Below, one piece after another: positions 2,043 through 44,226 of a stretch of DNA of 52,054 bases. The translations under genes and the position numbers were made by a program. The stretch is from assembly GCA_903920205.1 (NCBI GenBank), contig CAIXLI010000175.1, forward strand, positions 1-52,054, read 5' to 3'. The DNA comes from an uncultured Pseudomonadota bacterium (GTDB taxonomy: Bacteria > Pseudomonadota > Alphaproteobacteria > UBA9219). The notes below the pieces were generated by a model. It ran no database searches. It saw nothing but the letters and a program-made list of their open reading frames with translations, and was not told the DNA's origin. Numbering within the stretch: position 1 is the first letter of the stretch; every line of letters starts with the position of its first letter.

Positions 2043-2112
2043 GGGGGAACCTGATGGTTAAGGAGAAAAGGATTTCTGCGCCCTTTATCCGTACTCTTAT
2101 TAAACAACCCTA

Positions 2113-2129
2113 TTTTGACATTCATCAAA
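2113..2129. promoter_or_regulatory. FNR/DNR-type palindrome TTTTGACATTCATCAAA
   Basis: TTGA-N6-TCAA dyad centred about 80 bp upstream of ORF 1806..2042(-). Confidence 0.65.
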
Positions 2130-2201
2130 TAGCGCGCTGCCTATTGATTATCTGTTCGCAATGTAAGGCCGTGTTATTGCAACAGCACAATTCACAACGA
2201 A

Positions 2202-2230
2202 AAACGCCGCCCCATGGAAAGGCGGCGTTT
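2202..2230 (-). terminator. Rho-independent terminator after CsbD gene
   Basis: Perfect 10-bp arms AAACGCCGCC / GGCGGCGTTT; on the minus strand followed by a T run, just 3' of 2249. Confidence 0.85.
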
Positions 2231-2248
2231 CTCAATAAGGCAGGGGGA

Positions 2249-2470
2249 TTACGCTGCCTTGCTTGAACTGCAACTACAGTTTTTCTCAAGTTCGGTCAGG
2301 CGCTTTTGCGCGTCTTCTTTGGTAAGGCCGTATTGTTCTTGGAGCTTGCCGAAGAACATATCAAGCTTGCCATCGGCAAGAGCGATGTCGTCGTCGCTGA
2401 GACGGCCCCAAGTTTCCTTGATTTTGCCGCGAAGCTGATCGAACTTTCCTTGCATTTGATCTTGATTCAT
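2249..2470 (-). CDS. CsbD-family stress protein
   Basis: MNQDQMQGKFDQLRGKIKETWGRLSDDDIALADGKLDMFFGKLQEQYGLTKEDAQKRL matches CsbD pattern. Confidence 0.9.
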   Translation of the reverse strand: MNQDQMQGKFDQLRGKIKETWGRLSDDDIALADGKLDMFFGKLQEQYGLTKEDAQKRLTELEKNCSCSSSKAA

Positions 2471-2530
2471 AGCGATCTCCTTTGGTTGAGGGTTAAGCAG
2501 GGTTGTCTTGCGACCTCGGGGTTTCGCTTC

Positions 2531-2866
2531 TTAGTTAATGTGCAGTGGAATGATAAAATTGAACGCAGGCCCACCCCCATATTCCGGTTCAGCATAGTAA
2601 GGGGGCGGAGCATAGACGAGCGGCGGCGCATAAATCACACCCGGCCCCTGCCTGTATCGCCGCCCGTCCCACGAATGGGAGGCGCGATATTCATGGTCGC
2701 GCCAGTTTCTGTTTACGACGGCAGGCCTCCCTCGGCCATGATCGTTGCGCCAGCCCTGTGCCTGCGCAGGAGCACCACACACTGCCAGAAGCATAACGCC
2801 GAGCGCCACGCTTGTTATAACGCTGCGCAAAGTCACCGCGCAAAGATATTTAGAAAGAACATTCAT
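2531..2866 (-). CDS. Small secreted basic/Tyr-Pro-rich protein
   Basis: MNVLSKYLCAVTL... signal peptide ending APAQA, then RNDHGRGRPAVVNRNWRDHEYRASH and YAPPLVYAPPPYY; ATG at 2866 preceded by GGAG; longer ORF start at 3073 would overlap the upstream gene. Confidence 0.6.
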   Translation of the reverse strand: MNVLSKYLCAVTLRSVITSVALGVMLLAVCGAPAQAQGWRNDHGRGRPAVVNRNWRDHEYRASHSWDGRRYRQGPGVIYAPPLVYAPPPYYAEPEYGGGPAFNFIIPLHIN

Positions 2867-2893
2867 GATCTGCTCCTTGGTGAGAACAAAAGT

Positions 2894-2933
2894 CGTTTCA
2901 GAGAGAATGCTTGAACGCCCCTCTTCTGAAACG
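2894..2933 (-). terminator. Inverted repeat between the Spy-like gene and the next gene (terminator/attenuator-like)
   Basis: CGTTTCAGA (2894-2902) / TCTGAAACG (2925-2933); on the minus strand followed by ACTTTTGTT. Confidence 0.45.
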
Positions 2934-2954
2934 AGTGGAATGACAAGGGGCAAG

Positions 2955-3548
2955 TTATTTGTGCTTTTTGCCCGGCTTTTTGCCATGACGTCCTTCAAAG
3001 TTTCCAAAGACTTTATCAGCGACTTTTTGCTGACTGTCCGGCATGTCAGCGTAAAGCGACTGGAACGACGCAATCATCTTCTTAAGACCATCAGCATGCG
3101 CCTGCGTGATATCGGCGTAGGATTGAAGGTCATCGATGGCGGTCATGGCCTCCGCGTTTTGATGCCGAGCTTCGATCAGCGTCCTGATCGCCGTTTCGTT
3201 ATCGCGCATCGTTTGCGCAACGGCAGACCATTTTACTTCCTGCTCGCTTGTAATAACGAGTTTGTCGTGCAGGGTGCTGATGCGTTCTTCGACATGCTGC
3301 GCCATTTCTTGTGGACTATGCTCCATCATCATCTTGTCATGCCCGCGATGATGCTTGACGGGTGGAGCGACTTGATCCGCCGCGTTTTGCTGTGGTTCCG
3401 TTGCATCGGCAGGCGAAGCATTCACGGGGCCAGCAAAAGAAAAACAGCCGATCACTGCGGCAAGAACGGCGGTGCGAATAATAGTTTGCGAGAGGGGGGG
3501 CGCCTGCAACGGCAAGTTCCTATCTTGATCTCTAGCGATATTTTTCAT
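2955..3548 (-). CDS. LTXXQ/Spy-like periplasmic protein
   Basis: Signal peptide; MMMEHSPQEMAQHVEERISTLHDKLVITSEQEVKWSAVAQTMRDN resembles the Spy/CpxP family; His/Lys-rich tail. Confidence 0.7.
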   Translation of the reverse strand: MKNIARDQDRNLPLQAPPLSQTIIRTAVLAAVIGCFSFAGPVNASPADATEPQQNAADQVAPPVKHHRGHDKMMMEHSPQEMAQHVEERISTLHDKLVITSEQEVKWSAVAQTMRDNETAIRTLIEARHQNAEAMTAIDDLQSYADITQAHADGLKKMIASFQSLYADMPDSQQKVADKVFGNFEGRHGKKPGKKHK

Positions 3549-3617
3549 CGGGAATCCTATAGGTTGGGGTGTGGGAAACTTTCTGACTGACCTCGTCTAC
3601 ACCCACATCACATTGCT

Positions 3618-3639
3618 CATTTTGACATTAATCAAAATG
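3618..3639. promoter_or_regulatory. FNR/DNR-type palindrome CATTTTGA-CATTAA-TCAAAATG
   Basis: Perfect 8-bp arms with 6-bp spacer between divergent Spy-like gene (3548-) and Crp/Fnr gene (3682+). Confidence 0.75.
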
Positions 3640-3681
3640 TTTTTTTAAGACTCTTCCTTTAAGGAGGAGTATACTTCCTCC

Positions 3682-4437
3682 ATGTCGTTACTGTGCACAA
3701 CCAGAGGCGAAGAAGTTTCTGGGCACCGGTCGAGTTATCTGGGGTGCTTGAGGGGAGCTTTGTTTTTTTCAGGCCTTTCCGACAAGGAAATTTCAGGATT
3801 TTTAGATGTCGCCCAGTCACGGGCTTACAGAAAAGGTAAGCTGCTTTACCTTGAAGGAGAGCCCGCAGAATTTTTTTACGTTGTCTGTAGCGGCTGGGTG
3901 AAACTTTTTCACACCATGCCGGAAGGCGACGAAGTGACCATTGACATGCTGACCACTGGACATCTTGCGGGCGAGGGTTCCATATTTGAAAATGGCCTTC
4001 ATACAAGCAGCGCACAAGTGATCGAAGACGTTCAGGTCATCAGCATTCCTTTGCACACGTTGAAGGATCAAATTAGAAACAGCCAGACATTGGCGCTGAA
4101 CATGTTTTCCGCGATGGCGCGCCATCACAGACGCCACTATGGCGATATGGCGCTGAACGCGATGCAGACGGCACCCCAGCGCGTTGGAACTTTTTTGCTG
4201 AGGCTTTGCCCGCAAGACAAAAAGGAAAGCATCGCTTTTCATCTACCCTATGACAAAACCTTGATCGCCGAAACTTTGGGAATGAAAGGCGCGACGTTTT
4301 CCCGCGCACTAAATATATTAAGGCAAAAGACGGGGCTGCGCATGAAAGGCACGCGCGTCGAAATTGACTCGACAAAGGCCTTAATCAAATTTGTTTATGG
4401 GCCCCTCGCCACAAAATACTTGTCAGAAGATTTTTGA
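3682..4437 (+). CDS. Crp/Fnr-family transcriptional regulator
   Basis: cNMP-binding-like N-domain (YRKGKLLYLEGEPAEFFYVVCSGWVKLF) and HTH (LIAETLGMKGATFSRALNILRQ); RBS AAGGAGGAG. Confidence 0.85.
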   Translation: MSLLCTTRGEEVSGHRSSYLGCLRGALFFSGLSDKEISGFLDVAQSRAYRKGKLLYLEGEPAEFFYVVCSGWVKLFHTMPEGDEVTIDMLTTGHLAGEGSIFENGLHTSSAQVIEDVQVISIPLHTLKDQIRNSQTLALNMFSAMARHHRRHYGDMALNAMQTAPQRVGTFLLRLCPQDKKESIAFHLPYDKTLIAETLGMKGATFSRALNILRQKTGLRMKGTRVEIDSTKALIKFVYGPLATKYLSEDF

Positions 4438-4446
4438 TTTGACGCG

Positions 4447-4833
4447 TCAGTTCTCGTCAAAAACACCCGTCAACCAGCCCCAATCGAGATTCGCGGGGTG
4501 TTCGATATATTCTTCGGGATGATCGACGACCTGCTTGATGTAACTGTATTTAAACGGCCAGACATCTTCCCGAATGGCGGGTTCCTTTTTTAGGATTTTT
4601 ATTTTCATGTCCTCGGTAAGTTGCAGCGTGTAAATGACCTTGGGCCTGTCGTCATAGACCGCGCAGTGAACGACGGCGTCCTGTCCAAGTTTCTTCCACC
4701 GCGCTTGCCAGATTTCCATAAATGGAAATTTTGTTTTGTTTTTTTCGATGGCCTGATTGCAGACTTCCAGATAGCGCTCGAAAACACGTTCATATTCCTC
4801 GACGATTTCCGGTTTTTGGGTCAAAGCATCCAT
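4447..4833 (-). CDS. Hypothetical protein (~128 aa)
   Basis: ATG at 4833 preceded by AAAGGAGAACAACA; MDALTQKPEIVEEYERVFERYLEVCNQAIEKNKTK; no family recognised. Confidence 0.6.
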   Translation of the reverse strand: MDALTQKPEIVEEYERVFERYLEVCNQAIEKNKTKFPFMEIWQARWKKLGQDAVVHCAVYDDRPKVIYTLQLTEDMKIKILKKEPAIREDVWPFKYSYIKQVVDHPEEYIEHPANLDWGWLTGVFDEN

Positions 4834-4943
4834 TGTTGTTCTCCTTTCCTTACGCAGCAAGGACACAAAATTCAGGAAGACGTCTTGACTTATGTAAAAT
4901 AGACAAGCTTGACGCATGACGTTGAGCCGATGACGGCGCATGC

Positions 4944-4963
4944 CTTTTGATTAATGTCAAAAG
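4944..4963. promoter_or_regulatory. FNR/DNR-type palindrome CTTTTGA-TTAATG-TCAAAAG
   Basis: Perfect 7-bp arms, TTGA-N6-TCAA, between divergent genes 4833(-) and 5035(+). Confidence 0.75.
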
Positions 4964-5034
4964 AACGGATGGTAGATAGAGGTACACGCAACACCGTCGG
5001 AGAATTCCTGCCGATTTTTATATGGAGCTTCCCA

Positions 5035-5445
5035 ATGAATCACGCCAGAAAAAATAGCGCACTTATGCTGACCGGCCTTGCTTTGCTTGGCGCCGCTATG
5101 CCGATAATGTACGCAAGAGCGGACAACGTGACGCAAACCATCGAGATGGTTCGGGTTGACGTTCAAAAGCTTTCGACCGGCTATCGCGTTTCTAAACTGA
5201 TTGGCAACAATGTTGTCAACGACACGGATGAAACGATCGGCAAGATCGACGACCTTATTGTCAGTCCCGACGACAACAAGTCTGCTTACGTCATTCTTTC
5301 GGTCGGCGGTTGGCTGGGCATGGGCACGCATTTGGTCGCCTTGCCTTATGCTAACTTACATATTACCAGCAACAAAATAGCTTTGCCCGGCGCTACCAAG
5401 GAAGGATTAAAAACCCTGCCGGAGTTTAAGTTCAGCACACTCTAA
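5035..5445 (+). CDS. PRC-barrel domain protein, secreted
   Basis: Signal peptide; YRVSKLIGNNVVNDTDETIGKIDDLIVSPDDNKSAYVILSVGGWLGMGTHLVALPY is PRC-barrel-like. Confidence 0.8.
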   Translation: MNHARKNSALMLTGLALLGAAMPIMYARADNVTQTIEMVRVDVQKLSTGYRVSKLIGNNVVNDTDETIGKIDDLIVSPDDNKSAYVILSVGGWLGMGTHLVALPYANLHITSNKIALPGATKEGLKTLPEFKFSTL

Positions 5446-5453
5446 GCCTTTTT

Positions 5454-5479
5454 CCCTCGCTTTACGCGTGAGGCGAGGG
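5454..5479 (+). terminator. Putative terminator hairpin
   Basis: CCCTCGC / GCGAGGG arms just 3' of the PRC-barrel gene; no clear T tract on the + strand. Confidence 0.5.
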
Positions 5480-5528
5480 GATGGTTTTGCCGCTTAGACT
5501 ACCCCTTACACTTTTTTGGAGGAAGCTT

Positions 5529-5897
5529 ATGAAATATCCACGCTTATCTGCTTTGTTATTTGTTGTTCTTGGTCTCGCCGCTTGTACCGGCCCTGCGGGC
5601 CCTCCTGGCAATCAGGGTAATACGGGCTATACAGGCGCAACAGGCGCCAAGGGAAACACAGGAAACACGGGCTATACAGGGTACACAGGCGCGACGGGCA
5701 ATCAGGGAAACACCGGCTATACCGGTGCGACCGGAGAGACCGGACAACAGGGCATGTCTGGCGACACTGGCGCACAAGGCGTTCCTGGCGACAAAGGCCA
5801 GCAAGGGGCTTCAGGAAGCCAGGGCAAGAAAGGCAATACAGGCGCCAAGGGAAGCACTGGTGGCTCGGGCAGCCCTACGACCGTTATTGTCGAGTAA
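5529..5897 (+). CDS. Collagen-like (Gly-X-Y) lipoprotein
   Basis: Lipobox LAAC followed immediately by about 32 uninterrupted G-X-Y triplets (GPAGPPGNQGNTGYTGATGAKG...). Confidence 0.85.
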   Translation: MKYPRLSALLFVVLGLAACTGPAGPPGNQGNTGYTGATGAKGNTGNTGYTGYTGATGNQGNTGYTGATGETGQQGMSGDTGAQGVPGDKGQQGASGSQGKKGNTGAKGSTGGSGSPTTVIVE

Positions 5898-6095
5898 GTC
5901 TGGGGCGTTTTAAGACTGCGGGGACTCCCCCTCTCCGCAGTTCGCCCTTTGAGTGCATGCCTTCCTGCGGAGCCCCCTAATACTTCGCACATTTCAAATA
6001 ACACAAACAAAGATCTTCATCGCTAATAAACAGACCGCAAGGCTTTCAGCCCCACCTTGTCACAGTCAATTCACGCATAATTGAGGAGACTCGCC

Positions 6096-6323
6096 ATGCC
6101 CGACTCGCAAAAAAAACCCACGCCAGAGCTGAGTTTCGAAGATCATATCAACGCCGCCAAATGCTGTAATAAAGCAGCGCAAGAACATAGTCACGCTGCC
6201 CAATGCTGCGCGACAGGGGATACAGATAGAGCGGTCGGTCATGCGCAAAGCGCGCTATTTTACAACGCGATAGCGCAAGATTACGGTCTGCGGGCGATTG
6301 CTCATAAAACGGGTTCAGCGTGA
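6096..6323 (+). CDS. Small hypothetical cytosolic protein
   Basis: MPDSQKKPTPELSFEDHINAAKCCNKAAQEHSHAAQCCATGDTDRAVGHAQSALFYNAIAQDYG; RBS GAGGAG. Confidence 0.6.
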   Translation: MPDSQKKPTPELSFEDHINAAKCCNKAAQEHSHAAQCCATGDTDRAVGHAQSALFYNAIAQDYGLRAIAHKTGSA

Positions 6324-6334
6324 CGCCCCCGTTA

Positions 6335-6371
6335 GGGGAAAAGTTTTTCGTGTACGAAGGAGCTTTTCCCC
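6335..6371. terminator. Terminator hairpin between convergent genes
   Basis: GGGGAAAAG ... CTTTTCCCC arms with inner TTCG-TGTA-CGAA, between 6323(+) and 6379(-). Confidence 0.7.
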
Positions 6372-6378
6372 GTCAAAC

Positions 6379-6771
6379 CTACTTCATCGCGGCTAGTTGT
6401 TCTCGAAGCCAAATTCTGGCTTCCATCTTTGTTCCGTCGGCAAGGCGCACGTAATAGGGAAGCCCTGTCACCGACGACTGACTAGCAATGGCGTTGATAA
6501 AATCTTCTGCCGTGTGAATCTGGTCGCTAAAATTCTTGAGCTTTTCTCGAAGATGAGCGCTGGCTTCTTCTCCGGTATAGGTAACACCGTTACGGATAAA
6601 CACAAGATCGGAGGCGCTTATTCTATTAAGCAAAGCAAGAATTTTATAATGTTCGCTTTGTTGATCGGCATGAGCGTGCGTTTGGCACGCAAAAGATACC
6701 GCCATTAGAGCCGTCATAAGCAGGATACGAAACAGAAACCTATTCCTGAACGTCGCATAAGGCACAGACAT
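6379..6771 (-). CDS. Hypothetical secreted protein (130 aa)
   Basis: Signal peptide, intact ORF directly downstream of the PLD gene. Confidence 0.6.
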   Translation of the reverse strand: MSVPYATFRNRFLFRILLMTALMAVSFACQTHAHADQQSEHYKILALLNRISASDLVFIRNGVTYTGEEASAHLREKLKNFSDQIHTAEDFINAIASQSSVTGLPYYVRLADGTKMEARIWLREQLAAMK

Positions 6772-6782
6772 ATTTTTCTCCC

Positions 6783-8381
6783 TTACAATTCAGTGTCGAT
6801 TGGAAGAATGGAAAAAAGACTGTCTATAACATTTCTCCAAAATCCTGCATGCGGGTTGAAGTCATAATAAACAGTTTTGCCGTCCTCTTTGGTCATCCAG
6901 AGCATATCTCCCGCCTGAATGTCAGGGCGATCGGCGATCGGAACCGTGTCGGCAATAATAACGCGATAGCTGGATTCTGGCGCGGTTACTTCCGCAAACA
7001 ATCGCGCAATATTGGCGCAAAGTTTGAGGCTATGAATAACCAACACCTGTTCCGTGTTTTGTTGCTCCGATCTCGGGTCAAGGTTGAACGAGCCAATCAC
7101 AAGGTCCCGCCGATCAATCATATAGATTTTCGAGTGCAGTCCGTTTTGAGAGGATGGCTTAAACATGCTTTTGACGGAATGCAGCGGCTGTATGGATTTG
7201 ATCTCATAAAGTTTGACGCCGCCTTCGACCAAGGCCTTTCGATAATGGCTGTATCCTGCCTGAGCAGGGACCATATCGGTTGAGGCAAGGGAATTTGTTA
7301 CGATACGAACGGCAACACCGCGAGCCACTAAAGCCTTAAGTTCATCTACCCCGCTATCAAGCGGCACAAAATAAGGCGTAAAAACGATAAACTCGTGTTG
7401 CGCTTGCCCCACCAACGCATCAATGCGAAGGCTGGGGGCGCTAACGGCGGCATCGCTTGGCAAATTGATTTTGCCGGGGCTGTCCGAGGCCAGTTCGGCG
7501 CGCGCCCAAATAAGCGGCACATCGCCCTTTTTGACCTCGCGCGGAAGGGGGATCTTGTTGAGCTGTTCCCCGATTGAGGATTGTGCCGTCTCTTCCCAGT
7601 AAGCGCGCCTGTCGTCACGCAGTTTGACAATAGTTTGCGCGTTCGGCGGCGGCAGATTCAGCGTAAGGATGGGAAAGGATTCGTCGCTGTTCCAATAGAC
7701 ATCGAAATTATTCGAGATTTGGCGCGTGATGGGGCCGCTGCTAAGAACGTCGATATCACGAAAATCCATGACCTTGCTGGCCTCGAAATATTCATCGCCG
7801 AGGTTCCGCCCGCCCATAATGGCGATCTGGTTATCAACGATAATTGCTTTGTTATGCATGCGTCGCGTAAACTGGTGCATGTCGAAAAAGACGTTGCCGA
7901 TATGCGCAAAAAAAGATTCGTCCCGCGTCGAGTAAGGATTAAAAACCCTGATTTCTATATTGGGGTGTTCGTTCAAAGAAACAGCGCCAGCTTCGAAATC
8001 GTCAAGATTCCAGTCGTCCAACAGCATCCGCACGCGCACGCCCCGATCTGCAGCACGCGAGACCGCTTCCAGCAAAAGTTTGCCGGTCGTGTCGTCGCTG
8101 GTGCTGAAATATTGCATGTCGATGCTTCGCTGGCTTGCCTCCATCAGAGCAATGCGCATCATCATGGCTTCGGGGCCTGTTGGCAGAATGTGAAAACCGG
8201 ATTTACCGGGATGCCGCGTCGCGGCTTGCCCATAGGCTTGCCCAAGCAGCGTCCCCGATGTGTCGGTCACAGCGTATGTGGCGACACGCGGGTAATAGGA
8301 CGCGGGCAGACGTGCGGCGCACCCCGTTAACAAAACTAAAAGGGCAAGCCCACCACAGTATCGGTGCAGCGAGCGAGACAT
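6783..8381 (-). CDS. Phospholipase D / cardiolipin synthase-like lipoprotein
   Basis: Two HxK motifs: HNKAIIVDNQIAIMGGRNLGDEYF and HSKIYMIDRRDLVIGSFNLDPRS; N-terminal lipobox LLTGC. Confidence 0.9.
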   Translation of the reverse strand: MSRSLHRYCGGLALLVLLTGCAARLPASYYPRVATYAVTDTSGTLLGQAYGQAATRHPGKSGFHILPTGPEAMMMRIALMEASQRSIDMQYFSTSDDTTGKLLLEAVSRAADRGVRVRMLLDDWNLDDFEAGAVSLNEHPNIEIRVFNPYSTRDESFFAHIGNVFFDMHQFTRRMHNKAIIVDNQIAIMGGRNLGDEYFEASKVMDFRDIDVLSSGPITRQISNNFDVYWNSDESFPILTLNLPPPNAQTIVKLRDDRRAYWEETAQSSIGEQLNKIPLPREVKKGDVPLIWARAELASDSPGKINLPSDAAVSAPSLRIDALVGQAQHEFIVFTPYFVPLDSGVDELKALVARGVAVRIVTNSLASTDMVPAQAGYSHYRKALVEGGVKLYEIKSIQPLHSVKSMFKPSSQNGLHSKIYMIDRRDLVIGSFNLDPRSEQQNTEQVLVIHSLKLCANIARLFAEVTAPESSYRVIIADTVPIADRPDIQAGDMLWMTKEDGKTVYYDFNPHAGFWRNVIDSLFSILPIDTEL

Positions 8382-8457
8382 ATTTCCTCAATTCATTTTT
8401 TTATTCATCGCGGCGTGTGGGAACTTTGACGATTTAGTATCAAGGGTGTGAAGCAAG

Positions 8458-8479
8458 CCTTTTGATCAATGTCAAAAGG
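8458..8479. promoter_or_regulatory. FNR/DNR-type palindrome CCTTTTGA-TCAATG-TCAAAAGG
   Basis: Perfect 8-bp arms with 6-bp spacer, between divergent PLD (8381-) and SYLF (8579+) genes; TATCAT -10-like element at 8503-8508. Confidence 0.8.
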
Positions 8480-8578
8480 CACACGCAAATACGGCGTACG
8501 ACTATCATAGTAGAAATTCATATTGCCTTCCTTCTTTTGAAGGATGTCGAAGATCGTCACCAACACATGGAGCAGATC

Positions 8579-9142
8579 ATGAGAAACTTACGGGCTTTCC
8601 TTTTGACGCTTGCCGTTGGAGCGCTTGCCTCTTTAGTTTGGGGTGCGTTTGGTAGCGCCTGCGCTGCGTCTCCTGAAGATTTGAACAAAGACGCCGATCA
8701 GGCTTTGCGTATGCTTGTGACGACAAATCCTGCCGCTGCGGCGCTTGCAAGGGATGCAAAGGCCGCGCTAATTTTTCCGAACATCGTCAAAGCCGGACTT
8801 ATCTTCGGCGGAGCCTATGGCGAGGGCGTTTTGAAGCAAGGGCCGAGAATAGACGGGTACTATAACTCCGTCACGGCCTCTTGGGGGTTACAGGCGGGTG
8901 CACAGTCATACGGTTATGTCGTCTTTTTGATGAACGACAAGGCGCTGCATTACATTCATAAAACGCATGGCTGGGAAATCGGCACGGGGCCAACGGTTGT
9001 GGTTGTGAATGAAGGCGTCGCCAAAAATCTTTCTTCGACAACCATGAAAAAGGACGCCTACGCCTTTATCTTCGATCAGCAAGGGCTGATGGCAAGCCTT
9101 AGCATTGAGGGAACGAAGATTTCGCACATCAAGAATCCGTAA
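8579..9142 (+). CDS. SYLF/YSC84-domain lipid-binding protein
   Basis: AKAALIFPNIVKAGLIFGGAYGEGVL...SYGYVVFLMNDKALHYIHKTHGWEIGTGPTVVVVNEG; signal peptide. Confidence 0.85.
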   Translation: MRNLRAFLLTLAVGALASLVWGAFGSACAASPEDLNKDADQALRMLVTTNPAAAALARDAKAALIFPNIVKAGLIFGGAYGEGVLKQGPRIDGYYNSVTASWGLQAGAQSYGYVVFLMNDKALHYIHKTHGWEIGTGPTVVVVNEGVAKNLSSTTMKKDAYAFIFDQQGLMASLSIEGTKISHIKNP

Positions 9143-9178: not shown

Positions 9179-9337
9179 ATGTCTTTAGGAACAATTCTTT
9201 TGGTCGTCCTTATCGTCCTATTGATAGGCGGCTTGCCCACATGGCCCCATAGCAGAAACTGGGGCTATTACCCTTCGGCGGGACTGGGGACGGTTCTGGT
9301 TATTGTCCTTATCCTCATGCTTTTGGGGAGACTGTAG
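9179..9337 (+). CDS. DUF3309-type small membrane protein (52 aa; missing from the ORF track)
   Basis: MSLGTILLVVLIVLLIGGLPTWPHSRNWGYYPSAGLGTVLVIVLILMLLGRL; RBS GAGAGGAACC. Confidence 0.85.
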   Translation: MSLGTILLVVLIVLLIGGLPTWPHSRNWGYYPSAGLGTVLVIVLILMLLGRL

Positions 9338-38231: not shown

Positions 38232-38319
38232 GAGAAGTGGGCCAGGGGCGACACATTGCCTTGGTTCCCTGCCTCTGATAGGGTCGGCGTCATGTCCCGC
38301 CGTGCTCCGCCTCTGCCCT

Positions 38320-39246
38320 ATGATTGAAATCAGCGTTAACCTTGCGACCCATAATCGCGCCGCGTTTCTGGAGCCATGCCTTATCGGCCTGTGCGAACAA
38401 ACGCTTGCCCCGTCGCGCTATGAAATTTGCGTGGTTGCCAACGCCTGCACCGACTCGACGCCCGAAGTTGTGCAAAAAATCGCAGCGCTTTATCCCTATC
38501 ATCGAATCTTTATGGTATGCGAACCAATTCCTGGGGTTTCGCGTGCGCGCAATCGAGGACTGAGCGCAACGAGGGCGCCGCTGATTGCAATGGTCGATGA
38601 TGATGAAATTGTTTATCCTGATTGGCTCGAAAAATTTATCGCCCGTTTTGACGCCTTTGATTCTAGTGTCGCCGTCATCGGCGGCGAGGTTGAACCGATT
38701 TGGGCAGGCGCCAAGCCGGAATGGGTAACGTCGCGCATGGAACTTTTTTTGTCGGCGGCCACAGGATTGGGTTCGGAGCCACGTTTTCTGATCGAGGGAG
38801 AATCGACGTTCGAGGGCAATAGCTGCTATCGCCGCTCTGTAATCGAGCAGGCAGGCGGTTTCCCTGAAGAGCTAGGACGTGTCGGCTCTTGTCTTTTATC
38901 AGGGGAACACGCTGTTGAATCCTACATCAGGGGAAACGGGGGGCGCATCTTCTTTGATCCGGCCATCATTCTCCGTCACAATATTCACGCGGACAGGGTG
39001 CGCCCGTTGTGGCTTCGACGCCGCCTTTTTTGGCAGGGCGTGTCCAGCGCGGCTATCCGGTTCTATCAAATTAGACACAATCTTCCAGTGACGAAGGAGT
39101 TTTTCCTTACTTTGCCGTTAAAGCCTGAGAACTGGGATTTTATTAGGAACGACACGCCGGACGCGTTGGAAGAAAGTATGTTCCTTTTTTACTGCCTCGG
39201 CTTCACTCTCGCTTTGACGGGGATTTTCCCTATCGACAATGTATAA
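38320..39246 (+). CDS. Glycosyltransferase family 2 (tandem paralog 1)
   Basis: MIEISVNLATHNRAAFLEPCLIGLCEQTLAPSRYEICVVANACTDST...AMVDDDEIVYPDW. Confidence 0.9.
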   Translation: MIEISVNLATHNRAAFLEPCLIGLCEQTLAPSRYEICVVANACTDSTPEVVQKIAALYPYHRIFMVCEPIPGVSRARNRGLSATRAPLIAMVDDDEIVYPDWLEKFIARFDAFDSSVAVIGGEVEPIWAGAKPEWVTSRMELFLSAATGLGSEPRFLIEGESTFEGNSCYRRSVIEQAGGFPEELGRVGSCLLSGEHAVESYIRGNGGRIFFDPAIILRHNIHADRVRPLWLRRRLFWQGVSSAAIRFYQIRHNLPVTKEFFLTLPLKPENWDFIRNDTPDALEESMFLFYCLGFTLALTGIFPIDNV

Positions 39247-39335
39247 TTGACTGCGGTTTCGTGGAGTTGCTTTGGGCTGGTGGCTCTGTTAGGGTCGGAG
39301 GCTCTTTTCTTTCGCCCTCTCCCCTTTTTTGCCGC

Positions 39336-40274
39336 ATGATTGAAATCAGCGTTAACCTAGCGACCCATAACCGCGCCGCGTTTTTGGAGTCGTGCCTTAT
39401 CAGCCTGTGCGAACAAACGCTTGCCCCGTCGCGCTTTGAAATCTGCGTCGTCGCCAATGCCTGCATAGACACCACGCCGGAAGTTGTGCGGAAAATAGCG
39501 ACTCTGTATCCCGCTCATCGCGTATTTATGATCGAGGAACCTGTCCCGGGTCTGTCCCGCGCCCGTAATTGCGGATTACGATCGACACAAGCGCCGTTAG
39601 TTGCCCATATCGACGACGACGGAACCGTCTATCCGGACTGGCTGGAAAGGTTTATAGCCCGCTTCACCGAATTTGGCTCCACCCTCGCTGCCGTAAGCGG
39701 AGAAATCGAGCCAGTTTGGGAAAGCCCCAGACCGGCATGGCTTGTGGAAGACATGCTTCCTCCTTTATCGGCCAAAACGATGATGGGGGCGGAGCCGCGC
39801 TTTTTGAGCGAAGATGATTGGGCCATGGAGGGTAATTGCTGCTATCGACGTGCAGCGTTGGAGCAAGCGGGTAATTTTTCCGAAAACTTAGGTCGTGCAG
39901 GCGCTTGTTTGTTATCCGGCGAGGGGTGCCTTGAACACAACATCAGGAAAAACGGCGGCCGCCTTTTTTTTGACCCCAAGATCATTTTACGCCACTTTAT
40001 CCACGCCGATCGTTTACAGCCTTTATGGTTTCGTCAGCGTTATTTCTGGCAGGGCATCTCTTGCGTGGCGGTTCAACGGTACAAAGCCAAACACGGTTTG
40101 CCAACGGAAAAGGAGAAATTCCTTCGCCTTCCTCTGGAAAAGGAAGACTGGGGCTTTATTGAAAAAGATACGACGGACGCTATTGAAACCAGCATATCTC
40201 AATTTCACGATCTTGGCTTTGTTCTTGCCTTGAGTGGCATCATCCCTATAGAGCAGGAGGTATCTGCCAGATGA
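39336..40274 (+). CDS. Glycosyltransferase family 2 (tandem paralog 2)
   Basis: MIEISVNLATHNRAAFLESCLISLCEQTLAPSRFEICVVANACIDTT...AHIDDDGTVYPDWLERF. Confidence 0.9.
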   Translation: MIEISVNLATHNRAAFLESCLISLCEQTLAPSRFEICVVANACIDTTPEVVRKIATLYPAHRVFMIEEPVPGLSRARNCGLRSTQAPLVAHIDDDGTVYPDWLERFIARFTEFGSTLAAVSGEIEPVWESPRPAWLVEDMLPPLSAKTMMGAEPRFLSEDDWAMEGNCCYRRAALEQAGNFSENLGRAGACLLSGEGCLEHNIRKNGGRLFFDPKIILRHFIHADRLQPLWFRQRYFWQGISCVAVQRYKAKHGLPTEKEKFLRLPLEKEDWGFIEKDTTDAIETSISQFHDLGFVLALSGIIPIEQEVSAR

Positions 40275-41197
40275 CCGAGATCTCTGTCGTTATTCCCACA
40301 CATAATCGTGCGGCATTTTTGGAACTATGTCTTGTTAGCCTCTGCAAACAATCGATTGATCCGTCTCGTTTTGAAATTTGCGTCGTCGCCAATGCCTGCA
40401 CCGACAACACACCGGATGTTGTGGAAGAAATTGCGGCACTCCATCCATCACATCGGATACTCATGGTCGAGGAGCCGATCGCGGGCGTATCCCGCGCCCG
40501 TAATCGCGGCTTACGAGCAACGCAAGCGCCACTGGTTGCTCATATTGACGACGATGGAACCGTCTATCCCGACTGGCTGGAAAGATTTATCGTTCGCTTT
40601 GCTGAATTTGGCGAGGATGTCGCCGGAATAAGCGGAGAAATCGAACCCGTTTGGGAAAGCCCCAGACCAGCTTGGGTTACGGAAGATATGCTGCCGCCTC
40701 TTTCCGCTAAAACGACGTTAGGGTCGGAGCCGCGCTTTTTGCGCGAGGATGATTGGGGAATGGAAGGCAATTGCTGCTACCGCCGCGCCGCGCTAGAATA
40801 CGCCGACAATTTTTCTGAACAGTTAGGACGATCAGGAACCTACCTTTTGTCGGGCGAGGGCACGTGTCTTGAACATCGCATTAGGAAAAACGGCGGACGC
40901 CTTTTTTTCGACCCTGAGATCGTTTTGCGCCACTTTATACATGCGGATCGTTTAAGGCCATTATGGTTTCGTCACCGTTATTTCTGGCAGGGTGTCTCTT
41001 GCGTGGCAGTCAGGCGGTACAAAGCCAAACACGGCCTGCCAGTCGACGCCGACAAATCTCTTAATTTGCCCTTGAAGAAAGAAGCCTGGGCTTTTATCGA
41101 GCAAGAAACGACGGATAATATGGAGGATAGCATGATCCGGTTTCACGATCTCGGTTTCGTCCTCGCCTTAAGCGGCATAATCCCGATAGAAAGTTAG
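40271..41197 (+). CDS. Glycosyltransferase family 2 (tandem paralog 3)
   Basis: MTEISVVIPTHNRAAFLELCLVSLCKQSIDPSRFEICVVANACTDNT; ATGA overlap with paralog 2. Confidence 0.9.
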   Translation: MTEISVVIPTHNRAAFLELCLVSLCKQSIDPSRFEICVVANACTDNTPDVVEEIAALHPSHRILMVEEPIAGVSRARNRGLRATQAPLVAHIDDDGTVYPDWLERFIVRFAEFGEDVAGISGEIEPVWESPRPAWVTEDMLPPLSAKTTLGSEPRFLREDDWGMEGNCCYRRAALEYADNFSEQLGRSGTYLLSGEGTCLEHRIRKNGGRLFFDPEIVLRHFIHADRLRPLWFRHRYFWQGVSCVAVRRYKAKHGLPVDADKSLNLPLKKEAWAFIEQETTDNMEDSMIRFHDLGFVLALSGIIPIES

Positions 41198-41209
41198 GAG
41201 GCTATCCTT

Positions 41210-42121
41210 ATGGTCGATATCAGCGTCGTCGTCCCCACCCAAAATCGCCCCGCTCTTCTTGGGCACTGCCTTGCAAGCCTATGCGAGCAAACGCTAGATC
41301 CGGCTCGTTTCGAGGTCTGCGTCGTCAACAACGGCTCAATCGAGATGACAGAGAAAGTTCTGTCCTTGATTAACACCCACTACCCGAAACATCGCGTCTT
41401 TATGATCGACGAGCCCAGGCGGGGCGTGGCGCATGCGCGCAACGCAGGTGTACGCAACACCAAAGCATCGTTAATCGCGCAGGGCGACGACGATGCTACG
41501 ATGCCGCCCGATTGGCTGGAACGTTTTTTAAACACGTTCTCTGCGCAAGAAGCCAAGGTTGGTAAAATTGGTGGCGACATTATTCCTGTTTGGAGCGCAC
41601 CCCGTCCGAACTGGTTGACCGACAGCATGCTCCCTATGTTGTCGGCAAGCAGCGGGTTCGGCGATCAGCCGCGTTATATGAACGAAGGCCTGTTGGAAGG
41701 TAACAGCTGTTATCGCCGCGAGGCGTTAGAGGCCGCAGGAAATTTCCCGGCCTCGTTGGGGCATCAGGGCAATACTCTTCTGTCGGCGAGTCATGCCGTC
41801 GACCTGGTGATGGATATTATGGGTTGGAAACTTTATTATGACCCCTCTATTGTGATCAACCACATAATCCACGCCGATAGGCTGACTCCGGCTTGGTTTC
41901 GCCGCCTCTATTTCTGGAAGGGCGTCTCGGACTTCGCCATACAAACATATTTGAAGAACAAAGGTGTCAATGCAGGTTTTACGATTTACGCCGACATGTC
42001 CTTCGACCAGGCCGACTGGTCGTTCATTAACGACGGCAACGAGCCTCCGACCGAAGCCGGACTGAACCGCCTGCGTAACCTCGGCTTTGTCCTCGCAAGC
42101 TCCGGCTTTATACCGTCTTAA
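41210..42121 (+). CDS. Glycosyltransferase family 2 (tandem paralog 4)
   Basis: MVDISVVVPTQNRPALLGHCLASLCEQTLDPARFEVCVVNNGS...AQGDDDATMPPDWLERF. Confidence 0.9.
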   Translation: MVDISVVVPTQNRPALLGHCLASLCEQTLDPARFEVCVVNNGSIEMTEKVLSLINTHYPKHRVFMIDEPRRGVAHARNAGVRNTKASLIAQGDDDATMPPDWLERFLNTFSAQEAKVGKIGGDIIPVWSAPRPNWLTDSMLPMLSASSGFGDQPRYMNEGLLEGNSCYRREALEAAGNFPASLGHQGNTLLSASHAVDLVMDIMGWKLYYDPSIVINHIIHADRLTPAWFRRLYFWKGVSDFAIQTYLKNKGVNAGFTIYADMSFDQADWSFINDGNEPPTEAGLNRLRNLGFVLASSGFIPS

Positions 42122-43446: not shown

Positions 43447-44226
43447 CTAGACCGCAACTTCAATGTTGCTGGCGGCGATCATGCAGTCGCCCGTGTGGGC
43501 AAAGGGGCACGAGCGCATCGTGATCGTATCGCAATATTCGCACAAAGCATAACGGGACGGGACGGTAAGATGGCTGCGTTCGATGATAAAGCCCCGCTCG
43601 CGGAAAGTCTGAAACGTACGCGAGAGAGTCTCCGGCTTGATGCCCAGATAGGAGGCGATCAGAGCCTTATCAAAGGGCAACACGATATCTTTTCCATCGG
43701 GGCTTGTGTTGAAGCGCATCTGCAGCAAAAATCGCCCCACGCGCCGCTCGGCGTTATGCAAGGCCAGTTGTTCGACATGATCGCGCAATTCCTGGCAACG
43801 GCGCACGGAGGCTTCCAGCATAGTGGTCGTGAAAGTTTTAGAGCGTTCCAACGCAAAGCGTACCGCCGTCGGCGAAAGCGTTAAAAGCTGAACTTGAGTC
43901 AACGCTTGCAGATTCATCGGGCTAATATCGACCACGGCGCTTGGCGCGGATTCCAGAAGGAAATCGCCGCGACGGAAAATCTGCAAAATGGATTCTTGCC
44001 CTTCCGCGTTGCCTTTGCTGGCGCCGCACCAGCCTTCCAGCATGACATAGAAGCGCGGAACCGGCGCACCTTGCGGCAGAAAGATCGTGCCTTTTTGATA
44101 CTGCGCCGCATGCGCCGAAACCATCAGCTCGCGCAGGACATCCGGCTCCACGCCCTGAAAAATAGGAAGTGCGGCGACGTCTTTGCCCAAATTCAACGTG
44201 ACTGACTGACTATACTGCATCGCCAT
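43447..44226 (-). CDS. Crp/Fnr-family regulator with C-terminal Cys cluster
   Basis: cNMP-like domain; HTH KALIASYLGIKPETLSRTFQTFRERGFI; C-terminal CEYCDTITMRSCPFAHTGDC. Confidence 0.88.
   Translation of the reverse strand: MAMQYSQSVTLNLGKDVAALPIFQGVEPDVLRELMVSAHAAQYQKGTIFLPQGAPVPRFYVMLEGWCGASKGNAEGQESILQIFRRGDFLLESAPSAVVDISPMNLQALTQVQLLTLSPTAVRFALERSKTFTTTMLEASVRRCQELRDHVEQLALHNAERRVGRFLLQMRFNTSPDGKDIVLPFDKALIASYLGIKPETLSRTFQTFRERGFIIERSHLTVPSRYALCEYCDTITMRSCPFAHTGDCMIAASNIEVAV

Follow-up and report, generated by a model that had tools for sequence, protein, structure and literature searches.

The subject of this report is a contig of 52,054 nucleotides from an uncultured alphaproteobacterium (CAIXLI010000175.1, assembly GCA_903920205.1), hereafter the window, in which four closely similar palindromes lie beside a series of small envelope and stress genes and the gene of a Crp/Fnr-superfamily regulator of 251 amino acids, REG1 (3682-4437, +), which we propose as their reader. 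The palindromes lie where an earlier note on this DNA had placed them, at 2113-2129 (+), 3620-3636 (+), 4946-4962 (-) and 8461-8477 (-), and all match TTTTGACATTNATCAAA with zero mismatches. They also agree with the operator consensus of FNR, FnrN and FixK, TTGAT/C-N4-A/GTCAA. All four are intergenic and three lie between divergent genes, again as claimed: site 2 (3620) between LTXXQ and REG1, site 3 (4946) between h128 and PRC, and site 4 (8461) between PLD and SYLF, while site 1 (2113) is placed between two genes of the same strand.

Each site points toward a predicted operon. Site 1 (palindrome 2115-2128, -) reads TTTGATGAATGTCAAAA toward a 78-amino-acid open reading frame, p78 (1806-2042, -), followed by a secreted fasciclin (FAS1) protein (1030-1764, -), an OmpA-domain protein (383-1033, -) and a glycine-zipper lipoprotein-like protein (114-374, -). 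Site 2 (3622-3635, -) points toward the genes of an LTXXQ (Spy/CpxP-like) periplasmic protein (2955-3548, -), a basic secreted protein (2531-2866, -) and a CsbD-like protein (2249-2470, -), with REG1 on the opposite side. Site 3 (4947-4960, +) faces the genes of a PRC-barrel secreted protein (5035-5445, +) and a collagen-like (Gly-X-Y) secreted protein (5529-5897, +), and opposite to them lies h128 (4447-4833, -). Site 4 (8462-8475, +) faces the genes of a SYLF/Ysc84 protein (8567-9142, +; start codon uncertain between 8567 and 8579) and a small DUF3309 membrane protein (9179-9337, +). On its other, non-preferred side are a PLD-family gene (6783-8381, -), which may be a second target, and, downstream of it, a DUF5329 gene (6379-6771, -). 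The distance of 80-87 bases from site centre to start codon that the earlier note gave for several genes is right for p78 (79.5), LTXXQ (80.5), PRC (81.5) and PLD (87.5); REG1 (53.5), h128 (120.5) and SYLF (about 99-111) fall outside it.

Only these four sequences in the window match TTTTGACATTNATCAAA at up to three mismatches, and shuffled sequences average 0.70 matches and never reach four. Genome-wide occurrences were obtained by pattern searches. In the source genome (G000; 2,324,392 bases) the FNR-like pattern TTGAY-N4-RTCAA occurs 32 times, against two occurrences of the reversed pattern. The 14-mer TTGACATTNATCAA has four exact copies in the genome, all inside the window and within 6.4 kb; the four sites thus represent one variant of a more general palindrome, closely grouped in one place. 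Among 26 further FNR-like palindromes of this genome that were examined by means of a simple gene caller, 16 are intergenic.

For comparison we used 24 genomes, all draft assemblies from one uncultured family, with genes in the relatives called by a simple codon model; eight of the 24 carry a REG1-type gene (E<=1e-30). When 41 palindromes were pooled from the REG1 genomes, picked by the palindrome only and without regard to what follows it, and aligned on the dyad, a box, AATnRGnGTAn4T, appeared at a fixed distance from the dyad, on the flank that holds the TTGAYATT half. In 22 of the 41 sites its GTA begins at offset 27, in three at 28 and in one at 26, compared with offset 27 in 2/41 on the opposite side; with shifts of up to two bases allowed, T28 is present in 36 and A29 in 37. 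The box lies about 21 bases past the 14-mer, and the dyad some 41.5 bases upstream of the predicted start. The fixed spacing, seen on one side only, resembles that of class-II activator promoters, yet the sequence differs from TAnnnT, and the starts on which the comparison rests are predicted ones.

The GTA of the box is found in the window at 2092-2094 (-) for site 1, 3598-3600 (-) for site 2, 4982-4984 for site 3 and 8496-8498 for site 4. It faces the FAS1/OmpA, LTXXQ/CsbD, PRC and SYLF operons and does not face REG1 or h128. Because the asymmetry of the spacer goes with the side of the box, each site is expected to drive mainly one operon (FAS1/OmpA, LTXXQ/CsbD, PRC/collagen or SYLF/DUF3309), and equal control of both divergent partners, as proposed earlier, finds no support. 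The asymmetric spacer appears to encode the direction of the promoter, which is a new feature here. On the PLD side of site 4, an ATACT-type box (GATACT, and CATACT in the same-genus genome G007) stands at the same class-II spacing, so this site may serve both directions. In G000 and G007 alike, TATACT immediately precedes the ATG of REG1, and the dyad lies 53-54 bases ahead of this start codon; since REG1 is also on the side of site 2 away from the box, any autoregulation would use a different arrangement.

The sites are kept in relatives. G007 has the syntenic block REG1 - h128 - LTXXQ - basic secreted - CsbD - FAS1 - OmpA - glycine zipper, the last protein being 75% identical to that of the window. 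In this genome TTTTGATATTTATCAAA stands upstream of h128 and also between REG1 and LTXXQ; TTTTGATATTCATCAAA, the counterpart of site 1, precedes the orthologous FAS1 operon (L058:5583); and TTTTGATTTTTATCAAA, the counterpart of site 4, lies between a syntenic PLD gene (80% identical) and SYLF (L216:3418), after which DUF3309 follows as in the window. Site letters are identical to those of the window at 14-16 of 18 positions and the intergenic regions at 63-70% of aligned columns, so the contrast between site and flank is modest when taken alone. PRC and the collagen-like gene that follows it are preceded by a site in G011, G014 and G015, and the SYLF operons of G014 and G015 likewise. Across the class, exact copies of the motif are sporadic and mostly single: just 12 of 289 genomes hold any, and the 11 besides G000 have one or two each.

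Sites also co-occur with the regulator. A composite promoter was defined as palindrome plus downstream box and counted at up to one mismatch. It is important to note that the box was derived from the present data, so that counts in REG1 genomes depend on it, whereas counts in genomes without REG1 are independent of it; in the statistics, related genomes were treated as independent. The eight REG1 genomes hold 37 composite promoters and the 16 others two. At least one is present in 7/8 and 2/16 genomes, respectively (Fisher p=0.0007), and among good-quality genomes in 5/6 with REG1 and 0/7 without (p=0.005). Matches to TTTTGAYATTNATCAAA at up to one mismatch number 11, 1, 3, 5, 1, 2, 1 and 16 in the REG1 genomes, and 0-3 (mean 0.5) in the rest (Mann-Whitney p=0.0005). 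The composite promoters thus follow REG1 more sharply than the motif counts do. The two that occur outside the REG1 genomes are in assemblies 79% and 69% complete, and one of them (in G019) precedes a DUF883 operon that has a site in G000 too. New composite matches precede the same gene families elsewhere: p79 in G005, DUF883 in G019 and PRC in G014. Near-consensus sites of G000 outside the window stand beside a DUF883-like gene and a p75/p79-type small protein with a baeRF12-type gene, and others adjoin genes for an ice-binding-like secreted protein, a glycosyltransferase, a lipoprotein and a cupin. The earlier proposal of a single regulon is borne out by these further members, by the recurrence of the site before orthologues and by its co-occurrence with REG1.

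REG1 belongs to the Crp/Fnr superfamily (cNMP_binding, PF00027, 71.5 bits; HTH_Crp_2, PF13545, 36.1 bits; each exceeds its curated cut-off). Its best-scoring named family is FtrB, with 91.9 bits, far under the NCBIfam equivalog cut-off of 211. The best match among solved structures is the cNMP-binding regulator 3fx3, and DNR (3dkw) matches as well. A paralogue, REG1b, 75% identical to REG1, is found on contig C95 of G000 (L055:13438-15430), flanked by TTTTGACATCCGTCAAA and TTTTGACATCCATCAAA, variant sites with a CATCC spacer, which face a p78/DUF308 operon, with a homologue of the window's p78, and a ferritin-like gene; the regulator thus has a duplicate, apparently with targets of its own.

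We consider it likely that a single regulon, run by the neighbouring REG1 through one-way class-II promoters, has the four sites as its operators, and that it serves survival when oxygen is low or energy is limited. REG1, probably sharing the regulon with REG1b, would bind TTTTGAT-nA-ATGTCAAAA as a dimer centred near -41.5 and, once bound, would activate transcription in class-II fashion from a promoter with AATnRGnGTAn4T as its -10-like box. The sites, their conservation, the one-sided box and the co-occurrence with REG1 are observed; binding by REG1, activation through that binding and the signal are what we infer.

Several findings weigh against this reading. The only cysteines of REG1 are at positions 5, 22, 69 and 176, with C176 alone invariant in the clade, and the N-terminal cluster plus central cysteine that hold the [4Fe-4S] centre of FNR and FnrN are absent; REG1 is hence not FNR proper, whereas the FNR-type geometry of the sites named in the earlier note is supported. 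In Crp/Fnr proteins a recognition-helix Glu contacts the operator core. The helix of REG1 (LGMKGATFSRALN) lacks this Glu of the FNR/FnrN/FixK pattern E-T/S-x-SR and has Ala instead: GATFSR is read in REG1 and eight of nine close family members (9/10), and Glu in 38/38 listed more distant relatives. Recognition of TTGA by REG1 is thus not self-evident, and the change can be tested at the bench. G001 carries two REG1-type genes and 0 composite promoters at up to one mismatch. The box carries its T at offset 34, where a standard TAnnnT -10 would have it at 33, and in the window the boxes of sites 2 and 3 stand one base further out. The side free of the box is that of REG1, h128 and, though less clearly so, PLD. 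Finally, some of the 41 pooled sites are orthologues of one another, a pair from G015 is duplicated, and a single family supplied all the draft genomes.

What the regulon responds to is the point on which a different reading has most to offer, namely that it answers envelope stress directly, the theme given by the earlier note. Nearly all window targets encode secreted, outer-membrane or small membrane proteins, and relatives have sites beside LpxR, DUF308, SPFH and YflT-domain genes. Of the 16 composite promoters of G015, two of them identical and hence 15 distinct, some do stand beside PRC/collagen/DUF3309, SYLF, OmpA/glycine zipper, SPFH, DUF992 and YflT genes. Others, however, stand beside a nitroreductase gene (with DUF308-pta-ackA-h128 divergent), a PHB-depolymerase-like hydrolase, PPK2, phasin/Pta/acetate kinase and BON/YjeF/alcohol dehydrogenase genes, which adds fermentation, storage, polyphosphate and redox functions. 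More distant REG1-type regulators, with h128, adjoin cbb3-oxidase or hemN genes, read by eye as ccoN (L088), ccoI/ccoS and hemN (L084), and hemN and ccoI (L091). In view of these targets and neighbours, envelope stress is too narrow a theme and its direct sensing unlikely; most likely the theme is survival under oxygen shortage or limited energy, in a programme to which many envelope proteins belong. The low-oxygen survival regulons of Anr in Pseudomonas and DosR in mycobacteria are similar in make-up to the one predicted for G015 (acetate kinase, phosphotransacetylase, PPK2, storage, nitroreductase); their regulators differ from REG1, DosR being a response regulator.

An alternative sigma factor could also explain the box, as its -10 element, with the proximal TGTCAAA half of the palindrome as -35 and REG1 added by the palindrome as a second key. 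The random base after GTA and the conserved T one base beyond its place in TAnnnT, which make the box a poor fit to a standard -10, would suit such a factor, as would the promoters of some extracytoplasmic function sigma factors, with a -35 like TGTCA and a -10 like CGTA or CGTC. Yet box matches without a palindrome are no better than background in the G000 loci, for which reason the box was rejected as an independent promoter element; the half-sites vary between C and T where a -35 of TGTCA would need a fixed base; and the palindromes go with REG1 genes. We regard this explanation as quite improbable.

Still harder to sustain is the view that the sites belong to REG2, a second Crp/Fnr-type regulator beside hemN (43447-44226, -), or to a shared FNR-type pool, with REG1 merely nearby. 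TTGAY-N4-RTCAA is readable by all Crp/Fnr regulators of this type, and the three genomes richest in sites (G000, G007 and G015) carry both regulators. Where the two are separated, the sites follow REG1: the 12 family genomes that have REG2 relatives (35-62% identity) and lack REG1 contain 0 composite promoters at up to one mismatch, whereas the five with REG1 and without REG2 (G001, G005, G011, G012 and G014) contain nine between them. The gap between REG2 and hemN has a one-mismatch site only, and the nrdD promoter combines a different FNR-type site, GGCTTGATCAAGATCAATCA, with an ordinary TAGAGT at class-II spacing. REG2 was accordingly rejected as main reader, and the joint control by it that had been suggested earlier finds no support. 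Chance, or a repeated DNA element of no regulatory role, might be entertained for a short motif in A+T-rich intergenic DNA, and is refuted by counts far above shuffles and reversed-pattern controls, for palindromic, intergenic sites that keep their positions between genomes while the flanks differ.

REG1 as the proposed reader of the sites can be set beside known systems. The FnrN/FixK regulons of Alphaproteobacteria have the consensus TTGANCNNGATCAANG and mostly respiratory targets, with storage genes (phbC) among them in some Rhizobiales, and their DNA-contacting residues are reported as highly conserved (PMC4999443). Like them, the present system has TTGAY-N4-RTCAA palindromes upstream of regulator-linked genes, and distant REG1 relatives next to hemN and cbb3-oxidase assembly genes. 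Unlike them, it shows TTT/AAA flanks, a one-sided ATT spacer, a distinctive downstream box and small envelope/stress targets, and REG1 lacks both the cysteines of FnrN and the conserved Glu. Likeness to DNR/FtrB-type regulators is seen in the FtrB score, the DNR structure match and the missing Fe-S cysteines, but the score is far below cut-off and no denitrification genes occur at the sites examined. Class-II FNR/CRP promoters share the placing of the box and the predicted distance from dyad to start, and differ in the box sequence, TAnnnT there, and in that the operator spacer here is asymmetric and predicts orientation. No described regulon of this make-up was found in the literature, a search that left most subscription papers outside. 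Many of the small envelope/stress genes concerned (CsbD, SYLF, PRC-barrel, FAS1, DUF3309, DUF883, DUF308, glycine-zipper) are widespread and have no settled function; here they are linked, in an uncultured family of Alphaproteobacteria, to a single regulator and a single type of promoter, and the model predicts direction, operator, promoter box and additional regulon members.

The convergent partner of REG1, h128, accompanies REG1-type regulators almost constantly across Alphaproteobacteria. With distant ones (about 30-44% identity) it forms a convergent pair in Micavibrio-like, Kordiimonas, Cohaesibacter and other genomes, and 12/15 cases have FNR-type palindromes within 200 bases upstream of it, against about 0.0008 expected for each. 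Residues Y21, C25, N26, W118 and W120 are invariant (window copy; L058, L060, L063, L083-L095), and a further copy closes the DUF308-pta-ackA operon in G015 (L207). The protein matches no Pfam or NCBIfam family, and its predicted fold (predicted local distance difference test score 78) has no PDB match at E<=0.001. It thus represents an unclassified protein family coupled to FNR-type regulators. In a wider and quite tentative view, which we would not expect to hold in full, a Crp/Fnr branch without the TTGA-contacting Glu still reads a TTGA palindrome and governs a two-key class of promoters that act strictly in one direction and have a non-standard -10 box, perhaps read by a sigma factor of their own, for low-oxygen envelope remodelling, with h128 as constant partner.

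Some further observations concern neighbouring or similar DNA. Just upstream of PRC, the block GGAGAATTCCTGCC (window 4998-5040) is kept in G007 (L058 near 2713-2760), where a PRC-like reading frame seems reduced to its beginning, possibly as a gene remnant. Elsewhere in G000, four FNR-type palindromes lie within 2 kb on contig C157 (L056), around an ice-binding-like gene and the gene of a secreted protein of 268 amino acids, with IS21-type transposition genes beside them; and two of another variety (L148:2797 and 2841, contig C56) separate the divergent genes of an HSP20 protein and a universal stress protein. A local tandem expansion occupies positions 38302-42121 of the window: four glycosyltransferase-like genes of family 2 in a row, all similar to one another.

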